A stretch of 64,000 nucleotides of DNA from Micromonospora profundi. GTDB taxonomy: Bacteria; Actinomycetota; Actinomycetes; Mycobacteriales; Micromonosporaceae. This document shows positions 40,461 to 44,275 of the stretch, in pieces. The notes below the pieces were generated by a model that was given only the letters and a program-made list of their open reading frames with translations, ran no database searches and was not told the origin of the DNA. Both the position numbers and the translations under genes were made by a program. The number at the start of each line of letters is the position of its first letter. Within the stretch, counting starts at the first letter, position 1. Location of the stretch: NCBI RefSeq assembly GCF_011927785.1, contig NZ_JAATJK010000001.1, positions 6,636,501 through 6,700,500 of the forward strand, read 5' to 3'.

Positions 40461-41125
40461 GGGGACGGCTCCTTTCAGAGCATCGCCGGGCGAAGTGCGC
40501 TCAGCGTAGGCGCGTCCTGCCGTTCCGGCGGGTTGCCGTCACGTAGCGGACAGCAACTCGCAGAGGTTGAACTCGCGGTGCTGCCGCGCCTGTCCACTTG
40601 CGCGGAGGACACGCGCGCCCGCCGACGAGACGGCGGCTGGTCTCGGGGCGTCGATGATCCCCGCACCGGCCGCCACGAGCACGGCCTTTTTATCGAAGGG
40701 CGGGAAGGAGGTGGGCCGCGTCGTTCCTGGTCGCAGCCAAGATCCACATATCGCGCTGAACGGGTTCGCTCGCTTGCTTGTGTCGAGCCCGTTAAAAGGT
40801 ATGGTGGTCGATGCGTGGACCCGCGTCGATGCGCCTCCATGCCGTTCCGGAAATCACGGAACGTAACCGGTTGTGATGAGGCCGGCGGGTGCTCCAGTGC
40901 CCTGGGTGAATTGTGCTGAAGGTCGCATCAAGCGCTCTATGAAGCGCTGATGTTGCAGGAAGGGGCCCTGATCTGGCCCAGCTTGTCGAGGCGGAGTGGG
41001 CCGAAGGGTGCAACCTCGCGAACGCTCGGACGGGTCCAGCCCTCACCGCTTTTCTGCGTACCGACCGTGTGGCACGATCGTGGAATCTCCACCATCCCTG
41101 TGACACTTCCCCGACAGGAGCAAAC
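40461..41125. other. 665-bp intergenic region with two short dyads
   Basis: No credible gene is found. It lies between the divergent HAF gene and the DVVWG-peptide gene, so it should hold both promoters. Two dyads stand out: CGTTCCG-N7-CGGAACG (40843-40863) and CATCAAGCGCT-N6-AGCGCTGATG (40926-40952). A short fragment GCAGGAAGGGGCCCT near 40956 recalls the proB-proA palindrome. Confidence 0.5.
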
Positions 41126-41386
41126 ATGTCTGGTCGAAGGCTGGGCCGGCTGCTCGGCTCGCTCCTCTTGCTCGCTGCTGTCCTCGGTGGACTGCAGGGC
41201 GCCGGTTCCCTGGCCGGCGGTAAGGCTCAACTGGCCGATGTTGTCTGGGGCGCGAGTCAGGACGGTGACGTTGTCTGGGGCGCAGGCCAGGACGGTGACG
41301 TTGTCTGGGGCGCAGGCCAGGACGGTGACGTTGTCTGGGGTTCGAGCCAGGGTGACGTCGTCTGGGGCGTCGACGCCCTCCGGTAA
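41126..41386 (+). CDS. Small secreted peptide of DVVWG repeats
   Basis: An 86-residue protein. The ATG at 41126 has AGGAG five bases upstream. A basic start and hydrophobic stretch (LLGSLLLLAAVLGGL, residues about 9-24) form a signal peptide or anchor, with likely cleavage near GSLAGG. The mature part is almost only repeats of the ten-residue unit DGDVVWGAGQ: five VVWG copies, the last followed by VDALR and the stop. It resembles the short (N/D)xVWG(T/N) repeats at the ends of some exported actinobacterial and acidobacterial subtilases, but here there is no protease. It lies 61 bp before the GGDEF-EAL gene on the same strand and is probably co-transcribed. Function unknown. Confidence 0.8.
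   Translation: MSGRRLGRLLGSLLLLAAVLGGLQGAGSLAGGKAQLADVVWGASQDGDVVWGAGQDGDVVWGAGQDGDVVWGSSQGDVVWGVDALR
41231..41374 (+). repeat. 30-bp tandem repeats coding for DGDVVWGAGQ
   Basis: Units at 41231-41260 (diverged), 41261-41290 and 41291-41320 (identical), 41321-41350 (a few changes), then a shortened 24-bp unit. The unit begins GACGGTGACGTTGTCTGGGG. The in-frame identity suggests recent expansion. Confidence 0.9.
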
Positions 41387-41447
41387 CTGGCGAGGTCGCC
41401 GCCCGTGAGGGCAGCACCAGCGGGCGGCGTCTCTTCGAGGGAGCGGT

Positions 41448-43973
41448 ATGGCCAGGCGTGACCAGCGACGCAAGTCCACGGACCACGCTTGGCTCATCAC
41501 CGGCCCGCTGGCTCTGCTCGCCGTCCTCTGTTGCACTGCCATCAGCGTCATCTCCGATGAGCCGTTCGGCAACTGGGGCCTGGCGTTCCTGATTTTCCTG
41601 GCGATGGCGGGCATCAGCATTCCGGTGCTGAACTTCGTCGTCCGCCGGCAGTCGGTGGGCGTGACGCTCACCGAGATCCCCCTCGTCGTGGCGTTGTTCT
41701 TCCTGCCGCCGCTGACCGTTGTCCTGATCTACACGCTCGCCTCGTTGATCTGGAGCGCCACGCAGCGCTTCCCACCGGCGAAGTTCTGGTTCAACGTCGC
41801 AAAGGCCGCAGCGGCCACGTCGATTGCCAGCCTGCTGCTCCTGCGGCTGCCGTCACTTGACGACGTGGGCCCCGGCACCTGGGGCAGCCTCTTCCTCGCG
41901 GTGAACACCATCACCCTGGTCAGCCTTATCTCGGTTGTCGGCGTCCATGTGCTCCTGCAGGGCTGGCAGGCGGGCCGGGAGGCACTGCGGACCACACCGT
42001 CGGTGTTCCTCACCACCTCGATCAACGCGTCCGTCGGTCTGCTCGTCCTGATCGCGCTGGAAGCGACGTGGTGGTCGGCGTTGCTGCTGGCTGCCCTCTT
42101 CGCCGCTCTTGCCCTGGTCTACCGGTCCTACGCCCAGTTCTTCCGGCAGCACCGCACCCTCACCGGCATGTACGACCTGGCCCGGCTGATCACCACAAGC
42201 GGTGCCGACGCGGCACTCGCCGATGTCCTGCTCGACCGGGTTCGTGCCCTCATGCAGGCGGAGTCCGCCACCCTCTGGCTGCCCGCTCAGGGCCGGCATC
42301 CGGAGGTGCTGTTGACGGCCCGGGTCGACACACCGGGGTTGCTGGACGTCGCTCCGACGCCGGCGATCCTGCGGGTACGGGCGCGGGATCTCGCGAAGAC
42401 GTTGTCGATGGGGCGTCTGCTCGGCGACGAGAGCGCCCTGCGCCGCGAGATCAGCGCCCGCGAGATCAAAGACGTGATCGTGGTGCCGCTGCGCTCCGGG
42501 CAGGCCGTGATCGGCACCCTGGAGGTGGCGAACCGGCTCAGCGACATCGGCCACTTCGCCCCCGGCGACATCCCCATCTTCGAGACGGTGGCGGCGCACG
42601 CGGCGGTCGCGCTGGAAAATTCGCGGCTTGTCGACCGGCTGCGGCACGACGCCTACCACGACACGTTGACGCGGCTGCCCAACCGCCGCCGGATCATCGC
42701 GGCGCTTGACGAGTCGGCCAAGATCGGGGCGCCCGACGAGGTGGTGGCGCTGCTGCTGTTCGACGTCGACGGGCTGCGTCAGGTAAACGAATCCCTCGGC
42801 CACGCGGCCGGCGACAAGGTTCTCGTCGAGGTCGCCAACCGGTTGCGGGCCAGTGCGCCGTCGTCGGCCCTGGTCGGCCGGGTCGGCGGTGACGAGTTCC
42901 TGGTGACGCTGCGTCTGGAGAGCGCCGAAGCGGCGTTGGAGTTGGCCGGTCAACTGCGCGACCAGATCCGCGACGAAATGGTCTTCGACGCGCTCACCCT
43001 CGACGTGAACACGGCGGTCGGTGTCGCCGTACACCCGGATCATGGCAGCGATGCCGCGACCCTGCTGCTGCGGGTCGATTTGGCGGCGACGGCCGCCAAG
43101 TCGGTGCCGGGCAGCGTGCAGCTGTTCAACCCGGCCCTGGAGTCCCGGTCGTTGCGCCGGTTGGGCCTCGCCGGCGACCTGCGCCGGGCACTGGACCAGA
43201 ACGAGCTGGAGGTCTACTTCCAGCCCAAGGTGACATTGCGTGACCGGCGGCTGGTCGGCGTGGAGTGCCTGGCCCGGTGGGAGCATCCCACCCACGGCAC
43301 TGTCGCCCCCGAGGACTTCGTGGCGGTGGCGGAGCACACCGGCCAGCTGAGCCGGCTCACCGAGGTGGTGCTCCGCGAGGGGTTGCGGCGGAGCCGGGAC
43401 TGGGCCCAGGCCGACCAGGCGCTGCCCATCGCTGTCAACCTCGCCGCCCGAACGCTCACCGACCGGCACTTCCCGGATCGGGTGCAGGAGCTGTTGACCG
43501 AGTACGGCGTGCCGGCGCAGCGCCTCACCCTGGAGATCACCGAGGCAGGGGTGCTGGACGGCACCGACAGGCCCATTCCGACACTGCACCGGCTGCGCGA
43601 TCTCGGCGTCCGGCTGTCGGTGGACGACTTCGGCACCGGCGACTCGTCGCTCGCCCACCTACGCCGGCTGCCCGTGCACGAGGTGAAGGTGGACCGCTCC
43701 TTCGTGCAGGGCATGGCGACCGACCCGGGCGACCTGGCGATCGTCAACGCGGTGGTGACGCTCTCCCAGCAGTTCGGCCTGGCCGTGGTCGCGGAGGGCG
43801 TGGAGAGCGAGCTGACCTTGGAGCTTCTCCAGGACATCGGCTGTGAGATAGGTCAGGGCTTCCTGTTCAGCCGGCCGCTGCCGTACGAGCGGCTGGCAGC
43901 CTGGTTCGGCGCCCAGGCCGACCCGGAAGCGACCTCCGGCACGGAGCTTCCGCGCCTTCGTGTCGTGCCCTGA
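41448..43973 (+). CDS. Membrane GAF-GGDEF-EAL cyclic-di-GMP enzyme
   Basis: An 841-residue protein. Residues 14-228 hold about seven or eight membrane helices (a MASE-like sensor without an assigned family), 245-400 a GAF-like domain, about 410-565 a diguanylate cyclase domain with an intact GGDEF at 480-484, and about 580-830 an EAL phosphodiesterase domain. The EAL motif reads ECL (606-608), keeping the metal-binding Glu; DDFGTG and the later EGVE are present. It may both make and break cyclic-di-GMP. The ATG at 41448 has GAGGGAG upstream. The preceding DVVWG peptide gene is the probable operon partner; the membrane part could sense something at the cell surface. Confidence 0.92.
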   Translation: MARRDQRRKSTDHAWLITGPLALLAVLCCTAISVISDEPFGNWGLAFLIFLAMAGISIPVLNFVVRRQSVGVTLTEIPLVVALFFLPPLTVVLIYTLASLIWSATQRFPPAKFWFNVAKAAAATSIASLLLLRLPSLDDVGPGTWGSLFLAVNTITLVSLISVVGVHVLLQGWQAGREALRTTPSVFLTTSINASVGLLVLIALEATWWSALLLAALFAALALVYRSYAQFFRQHRTLTGMYDLARLITTSGADAALADVLLDRVRALMQAESATLWLPAQGRHPEVLLTARVDTPGLLDVAPTPAILRVRARDLAKTLSMGRLLGDESALRREISAREIKDVIVVPLRSGQAVIGTLEVANRLSDIGHFAPGDIPIFETVAAHAAVALENSRLVDRLRHDAYHDTLTRLPNRRRIIAALDESAKIGAPDEVVALLLFDVDGLRQVNESLGHAAGDKVLVEVANRLRASAPSSALVGRVGGDEFLVTLRLESAEAALELAGQLRDQIRDEMVFDALTLDVNTAVGVAVHPDHGSDAATLLLRVDLAATAAKSVPGSVQLFNPALESRSLRRLGLAGDLRRALDQNELEVYFQPKVTLRDRRLVGVECLARWEHPTHGTVAPEDFVAVAEHTGQLSRLTEVVLREGLRRSRDWAQADQALPIAVNLAARTLTDRHFPDRVQELLTEYGVPAQRLTLEITEAGVLDGTDRPIPTLHRLRDLGVRLSVDDFGTGDSSLAHLRRLPVHEVKVDRSFVQGMATDPGDLAIVNAVVTLSQQFGLAVVAEGVESELTLELLQDIGCEIGQGFLFSRPLPYERLAAWFGAQADPEATSGTELPRLRVVP

Positions 43974-44066: not shown

Positions 44067-44139
44067 GCCCCCTTAGCTCAGTCGGCAGAGCGTCTCCATG
44101 GTAAGGAGAAGGTCTACGGTTCGATTCCGTAAGGGGGCT
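44067..44139 (+). tRNA. tRNA-Thr (GGT)
   Basis: A 73-nt tRNA with acceptor GCCCCCT/AGGGGGC, D-arm GCTCAGTCGGCAGAGC, anticodon stem TCTCC/GGAGA around loop ATGGTAA giving anticodon GGT, and T-arm TACGG-TTCGATT-CCGTA. CCA is not encoded. Confidence 0.93.
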
Positions 44140-44163
44140 CGAGGGTTCAGCTGGACCCACCGC

Positions 44164-44236
44164 GGCGGTGTAGCTCAGATGGCAGAGCAAGCGGCTCATA
44201 ATCGCTGTGTCGCCGGTTCAAGTCCGGCCACCGCTA
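44164..44236 (+). tRNA. tRNA-Met (CAT), elongator type
   Basis: A 73-nt tRNA, 24 bp after tRNA-Thr. Acceptor GGCGGTG/CACCGCT with a G-U first pair, loop CTCATAA with anticodon CAT, T-arm GCCGG-TTCAAGT-CCGGC. The lack of three G-C pairs at the anticodon stem base argues for elongator Met. Confidence 0.9.
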
Positions 44237-44275
44237 CTCTCGTCTTCCGGGCTCGTTCCCGGTGGTCGTGAACCC

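Follow-up and report, generated by a model that had tools for sequence, protein, structure and literature searches.

The genes of Phr pheromone precursors adjoin those of their receptors, which as RRNPPA proteins have a tetratricopeptide repeat (TPR) fold, while the yeast alpha-factor precursor, a eukaryotic case served by dedicated proteases and a G-protein-coupled receptor, holds several near-identical short signals split by spacers. The Phr pheromones of the Rap-Phr systems in Bacillota are made as short precursors with an export signal and with the oligopeptide near the C-terminus, sometimes in two copies (PMC11343458; PMC9765709), with maturation by extracellular proteases and tandem-duplicated propeptides described in one of them (PMC11343458). 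A locus that invites comparison with both systems lies in a stretch of 64,000 nucleotides from Micromonospora profundi (contig NZ_JAATJK010000001.1; hereafter the window), in which a small gene for a peptide with five copies of DVVWG directly precedes a gene for a membrane cyclic di-GMP (c-di-GMP) enzyme. Conserved pairing of the two genes, a repeated unit in the peptide, selection for alike copies of that unit, its co-variation with the membrane domain of the enzyme and the occurrence elsewhere of tryptophan (Trp)-tailed subtilases in the place of the peptide were all observed, and on these grounds the peptide is probably the cognate ligand of the sensor domain in the membrane part of the enzyme, through which it would alter c-di-GMP.

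To our knowledge no stimulus has been identified for many membrane c-di-GMP enzymes, and the cue that changes c-di-GMP in actinomycetes is largely open. Actinomycete development is controlled by c-di-GMP through BldD (PMC4151990) and through the RsiG-WhiG complex (PMC13232838). A 2022 census of c-di-GMP stimuli gives autoinducer-2 (AI-2) and the Burkholderia diffusible signal factor (BDSF) as quorum signals with direct receptors and, in the portion available, names no peptide ligand of a c-di-GMP enzyme (PMC8846402). The AI-2 and fatty-acid systems resemble the present proposal in that a cell-cell signal acts directly on a GGDEF or EAL enzyme, and differ from it in their non-peptide ligands and other sensor domains. 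RmdB of Streptomyces, a central actinomycete c-di-GMP phosphodiesterase, likewise has eight predicted membrane helices before GGDEF-EAL, a likeness drawn by description only, but has no GAF domain in its published architecture, and the accessible text names no ligand of its membrane region and does not use the word 'peptide' (PMC13232838). A GGDEF-EAL protein with a membrane segment is described in Actinoplanes as well (PMC6828939). No published description of such peptides, or of Trp-tailed subtilases beside GGDEF genes, was found in literature that covered few subscription papers and no bioRxiv preprints, of which many items were available in part.

The precursor is Phr-like in its architecture, with a basic start, a hydrophobic segment and a core at or near the C-terminus, and shares with the alpha-factor precursor the multiple near-identical short units and spacers within one precursor. 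It differs from Phr in phylum, in a Trp-centred core with up to seven copies and in the existence of a subtilase-tail form, and whereas Phr receptors are cytoplasmic the partner here is an eight-helix membrane protein with GAF, GGDEF and EAL domains. The peptide would work like Phr but falls outside RRNPPA, given the different kind of receptor. Since the peptide-enzyme pair is conserved and a single residue (residue 106 of the enzyme) is predicted to set specificity, the system lends itself to direct tests.

A small gene conserved with its enzyme

The original prediction, made from the window, described an 86-residue peptide with a signal-like N-terminus and five VVWG copies, a good ribosome-binding site for its gene, a gap of 61 bp to the next gene, no terminator between the two and a second product with seven or eight membrane helices followed by GAF-GGDEF-EAL, all of which was borne out (eight segments by hydropathy and charge, the domains by Pfam). 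Conserved pairing in relatives, the absence of which had been set beforehand as refuting, was found for 80/80 orthologues and in 42 of the 43 examined genera that have the enzyme, in a survey of one to a few genomes for most genera and more for Micromonospora, drawn from the 197 of 200 family genomes (43/44 genera) in which the membrane domain is present. The orthologues are the best 80 of 221 relatives returned by an enzyme scan of named genomes; the majority are from Micromonospora, and the others from Salinispora, Plantactinospora, Phytohabitans, Verrucosispora, Asanoa and an unclassified member of the Micromonosporaceae. A profile built from 38 clear cases recovered a small open reading frame (ORF) before 79/80 enzymes (L078 was missed and L080 was found only at E 0.2), and a profile-free rule, requiring a ribosome-binding site, a basic start, a hydrophobic segment and a stop within 200 bases of the enzyme, was satisfied upstream of all 80. 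The same rule was satisfied by 0/8 control genes in a first set, by 0/32 in a larger one and at 53 of 6123 random points drawn from these loci, where the Trp motif was present in 15 of the 53; this last comparison ignores kinship among the loci. The strict Trp-motif pattern was passed by 78/80, the exceptions by eye having VEWH (L048) or ending in AVEWN (L078). A 4-5-base piece of AGGAGG precedes the chosen start in the 80 listed cases, in which the start was picked partly by that run itself. Upstream of the peptide gene at least 11 of the 15 bases of GTGGCACGATCGTGG were matched in 80/80 loci (the window and 79 related loci), compared with 2.5% of upstream stretches after shuffling, again ignoring kinship, with the element beginning 51-67 bases before the peptide in every case; the genome contains the exact pattern TGTGGCACNATCG a single time.

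To define the unit, 168 assembled pairs were reduced to 166 with a long enough enzyme and to 144 after removal of near-identical membrane domains. Over these 144 peptides the core usually takes the form [D,G,E,S]-[F,V,Y,I,L]-[E,D,V,I,S]-W-[G,T,Q,N], with Trp present in 140/144. In the window and at the 80 named loci the last Trp is followed by no more than 34 residues. The core is single in 117/144 precursors and present in two to seven copies in 27/144 (allowing up to two mismatches), each lineage repeating its own: DVVWG five times in the window, DYSWG six times (L026), DIVWQ four times, one of these copies reading DIVWH (L013), EYDWD twice (L187) and DVIWL twice (L207). The VVWG repeat described in the original prediction is not what defines the peptides; as compared across the 144 peptides it is one lineage's version, and the common unit is a lineage-specific pentapeptide of the form [DGES]-hydrophobic-x-Trp-x. 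In one genus (g124; four genomes, L219-L222) the same architecture is found with GTG starts and cores lacking Trp (SSGEVA seven times, NSSDIG twice, TSGEVN twice and NSGDLQ once).

Copies within one precursor differ at synonymous sites (pS 0.43) far more than at non-synonymous sites (pN 0.04); the four residues that come next to each copy on its C-terminal side change freely (pS 0.60, pN 0.61). As the copies were located by patterns that demand likeness, the low pN arises partly by construction, and it is the contrast with synonymous change and with the spacers that is informative. That contrast indicates that selection maintains several alike copies of a five- to six-residue unit, in line with release or recognition of the unit on its own. 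The peptide as a whole is under moderate purifying selection (pooled ratio of non-synonymous to synonymous rates, dN/dS, about 0.4 over 28 close pairs, hand-picked and partly overlapping), and M1, R8 and W41 are invariant in 27/27 rows of the family alignment. Copies 1 to 4 in the window are near-alike with a period of exactly 30 bases, which might suggest a spurious ORF over a DNA-level tandem repeat without protein function; given the invariant residues, the purifying selection and the likeness of the copies despite synonymous change, the chance of this is negligible, and a chance or mis-called ORF was ruled out by the conservation, the control sets and the copy analysis. Over both strands of the whole 6.93-Mb single-contig genome there are 28 occurrences of the pattern GTNGTNTGGGG, and its only close-set run of more than two is that formed by the five copies in the peptide gene.

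The window peptide has no match in Pfam, and hence no Peptidase_S8 domain. Its database relatives bear no functional name, being 'hypothetical', 'uncharacterized' or unnamed among the 11 in one listing and the 40 in another, the latter from the best 7998 candidates scored. A search of its own genome for paralogues gave, besides the gene itself, a best match of E 0.0036 to the N-terminal part of the model only.

An ORF directly upstream with its own ribosome-binding site, in a family in which Trp is penultimate to the stop in 63/144 peptides and leaderless short forms occur, recalls regulatory leaders of the SecM or TnaC type, in which an arrest or attenuator peptide would act in cis on translation of the enzyme. 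Between the genes, however, a T-run was found in 0/80 loci (the window and 79 others), the folding of the intergenic RNA was unremarkable (mean z -0.24 against base-shuffled sequence, with 8% below -2, over 75 stretches) and the length of the gap ranges between 1 and 144 nt. Repeats of the motif occur in 27 of the 144 precursors, its distance from the stop is not fixed, and neither co-variation with residues of the enzyme protein nor the recurrence of Trp repeats as tails of S8 subtilases (see below) would be anticipated of a leader, so that such a role is very improbable; an attenuator or terminator between the genes was ruled out by the absence of an RNA signal.

Co-variation of the peptide core with the membrane domain

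Co-variation was analysed in 138 pairs, four of the 144 being dropped for cores without Trp and two for cores with Trp last. Cores were picked by script, and the four for which this had settled on a linker Trp (L008, L016, L023 and L064) were re-assigned by eye. In partial Mantel tests the core was correlated with the membrane domain when the cytosolic part was controlled for (r=0.24, p=0.001), whereas the reverse test, core against cytosolic part given the membrane domain, gave r=-0.13. The clearest association involves position 3 of the core and residue 106 of the enzyme. Where position 3 is acidic Arg106 is found in 55/65 enzymes, and where it is Val, Ile or Leu in 3/47, the residue then being His in 24, Gln in 9 and Tyr in 6. 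With other residues at position 3 Arg106 is found in 21/26, and because of this the contrast is one of aliphatic residues against the rest and not of acid against all else.

A mutual-information scan had 22 membrane-domain sites among its top 30, with cytosolic sites also represented (D327 was fifth). Because residue 106 had come from this earlier scan, all 312 variable columns of residues 1-560 were run through Pagel's test of dependent against independent evolution on a tree of the cytosolic part, with three starting points for the fits of the first 120 columns and two for the remainder. Residue 106 ranked top of the 312 (twice the log-likelihood difference, 2dlnL, 23.3), followed by Y95 (18.5), W208 (18.0) and H167 (16.1), all in the membrane domain, and then by L541 in the cytosolic part (14.9) and I192 and I94 (both 14.5). 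With independent contrasts A229 stood above Q106 on the cytosolic tree and Q106 came first on the full tree, and the top 30 held 19 and 21 sites, respectively, in the membrane domain, which contributes 56% of all tests.

Trp-tailed subtilases in the place of the peptide

Related membrane domains outside the family are often preceded by a different carrier of Trp repeats, an S8 subtilase of exported type. Among 40 longer regions around such domains, taken from earlier matches (36 outside the family and four inside), the gene just before the related enzyme ends in Trp repeats in 16, comprising 14/36 outside and 2/4 inside, the two in-family cases belonging to second paralogues (L245 and L246). 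All ten of the 16 genes that were run against Pfam matched Peptidase_S8. Their tails hold 12-23 Trp within the last 120 residues; that of L246, for instance, has twelve copies of GTSWG and that of L232 nine of GLTWR, and GSSWR was also seen. In a phylum-wide sample, in which 55 of 246 genomes had a match and 17 non-family regions were examined, a Trp-tailed gene was present in 10/17, recognised from its repeats. The Trp-tailed loci are spread across Actinomycetota (L230-L234, L236, L239, L240, L244-L246, L248, L257, L258, L261 and L265; further L304-L306, L308-L310, L312, L316, L318 and L319), and at L318 and L319 the tailed gene overlaps the projected start of the membrane domain by 4 bases.

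Short peptides precede two more related enzymes, with GTRWG twice (L235) and GASLT eighteen times (L249). The L249 product (G030:C1) is an exported-type peptide of 122 residues with zero Trp. At a contig edge (L268; G006:C113) the gene preceding a related enzyme ends in three copies of GPSFN. From the subtilase and short-peptide neighbours together it follows that Trp repeats often travel with the membrane domain, on a protease or alone. The S8 subtilases resemble the window peptide in their C-terminal, pentapeptide-like Trp repeats and in being encoded directly before a related enzyme; the window peptide is unlike them in having no protease part and in a lineage-specific core, the first residue of which is usually acidic or small.

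Tails so rich in Trp could bind surfaces, and the peptide might likewise be a cell-wall or surface-active product that is co-regulated with the enzyme and not sensed by it. The single-copy and leaderless forms and the residue-level co-variation with the membrane domain after tree correction speak against such a product, which is an improbable explanation of the pair. The original prediction had offered a signal or a surface polymer sensed by the membrane part of the enzyme; the signal gains indirect support from the co-variation and from the Trp-repeat subtilases, while the occurrence of single-copy and of short leaderless forms makes a polymer less likely.

Ligand or membrane subunit

If the peptide is a ligand, we infer that the product of the small gene is a precursor of a short signal and would be exported via its N-terminal signal, the pentapeptide unit (DVVWG in the window) then probably being freed by signal peptidase and an extracellular protease. 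The unit would have as its target the eight-helix domain of the GAF-GGDEF-EAL protein encoded beside it, bind there from one side or the other and change the c-di-GMP output of that protein upwards or downwards, serving as an autocrine or population signal with a putative role in density sensing or development. At least two Lys or Arg are found among the first 12 residues of 140/144 peptides. More tentatively, the peptides may belong to a family of multi-copy pentapeptide pheromones in Actinomycetota that are read directly by membrane c-di-GMP enzymes, with lineage 'dialects' matching receptor residues; the subtilase tail would be the ancestral or an alternative form, in which the protease could excise its own signals, and Micromonosporaceae would keep the signal alone.

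Several observations weigh against a secreted ligand or against the coupling on which it is based. An A-x-A signature is present in 85/144 peptides only. Two family members (L212 and L218) have the motif and a ribosome-binding site without a signal sequence, L218 carrying four DxxWQ units, and a weak enzyme paralogue (L227/L247; G329:C17) has upstream of it only a tandem pair of heptapeptide ORFs, MRDDSWH, of which the second has a strong ribosome-binding site; these cases show that it is the motif that is kept, with export there unexplained. One genus (g126, L223) has the enzyme with no peptide seen, three divergent in-genus paralogues of the enzyme lack a peptide, and no Trp-tailed neighbour was found in 22/36 and 7/17 of the non-family regions, some of whose contigs end nearby. 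The membrane domain evolves faster than the cytosolic part, possibly inflating its share of the correlation, and one of the seven highest Pagel columns (L541) is cytosolic. Median values over the first 120 columns, 3.4 for membrane and 4.3 for cytosolic sites, do not favour the membrane domain, and because of this the coupling is taken to sit in few sites. The loop that holds residue 106 is predicted from charge to be cytoplasmic (mean 3.1 Lys+Arg), which is odd for an outside ligand; return of the ligand into the cell, as occurs for Phr through an oligopeptide permease, or its access to a cavity running through the membrane domain is possible and would remove the difficulty.

In Micromonospora peptides the hydrophobic segment lies by eye only some 12-16 residues ahead of the first core, and a signal-peptidase site is often not evident. 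Together with the frequent lack of A-x-A, the strict linkage in cis and the co-variation with the membrane domain, which fits equally well, this would be in line with the small protein being an obligate, non-diffusible membrane subunit or tethered ligand, its uncleaved helix lying N-in, C-out and its Trp tail docking on the membrane domain of the enzyme for folding or for other sensing. Leaderless versions, up to seven copies of the unit between freely changing spacers and Trp-repeat subtilases are unlike a structural subunit, and this arrangement is judged unlikely, though less so than a surface product or a leader. The released pentapeptide as ligand is preferred, and the features that it would involve are collected in Table 1.

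Table 1. Coordinates in the window of the peptide gene, the enzyme gene and associated features.
Feature	Position	Strand	Detail
Promoter-like conserved element TGTGGCACGATCG (the TGTGGCAC element)	41068..41080	+	46-58 bases upstream of peptide start
Ribosome-binding site of peptide gene	41116..41121	+	AGGAGC, from sequence
Peptide gene	41126..41386	+	86 aa; ORF with basic N-terminus, hydrophobic segment and five-copy tail; exported-type
First DVVWG core	41237..41251	+	
Second DVVWG core	41267..41281	+	
Third DVVWG core	41297..41311	+	
Fourth DVVWG core	41327..41341	+	
Fifth DVVWG core	41354..41368	+	
Intergenic stretch	41387..41447	+	61 bp; no T-run terminator; 3' end is the ribosome-binding region of the enzyme gene
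Membrane c-di-GMP enzyme	41448..43973	+	841 aa; about 8 predicted membrane helices, GAF, GGDEF, EAL (here ECL)
N-terminal membrane domain	41448..42173	+	residues 1-242; proposed receptor domain
Codon of residue 106	41763..41765	+	Gln in the window
GAF domain	42216..42614	+	residues 257-389; Pfam
GGDEF domain	42651..43103	+	residues 402-552; Pfam
EAL domain	43176..43877	+	residues 577-810; Pfam

The Pfam matches of the enzyme to GAF, GGDEF and EAL are far above the cut-off, with no other family and nothing before residue 257. The window enzyme has the catalytic signatures GGDEF (at 480), ECLARW, EITE, DDFGTG, KVDR and AEGVE; among 120 long-enough relatives 113 have ECL and 96 match the search pattern for GGDEF. 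The eight membrane segments and their topology are suggested by hydropathy and charge only. Pfam sensor models gave no match to the window membrane domain up to E 1, and across 21 members they touched 12 families, each in a single member (MASE9 at E 0.1). Sequence matches to the PDB were at best E 0.07 and above, with RibU at E 1.3, and a known sensor domain or a relative of a solved structure was accordingly set aside, none being convincing in Pfam or PDB. The genome also holds a divergent paralogue of the membrane domain (L301; G000:C1:5042500-5048500) with neither a peptide gene nor a Trp-tailed gene before it. Shortly 3' of the enzyme gene, at 44070-44240 of the window, two tRNA-like sequences were recognised by eye.

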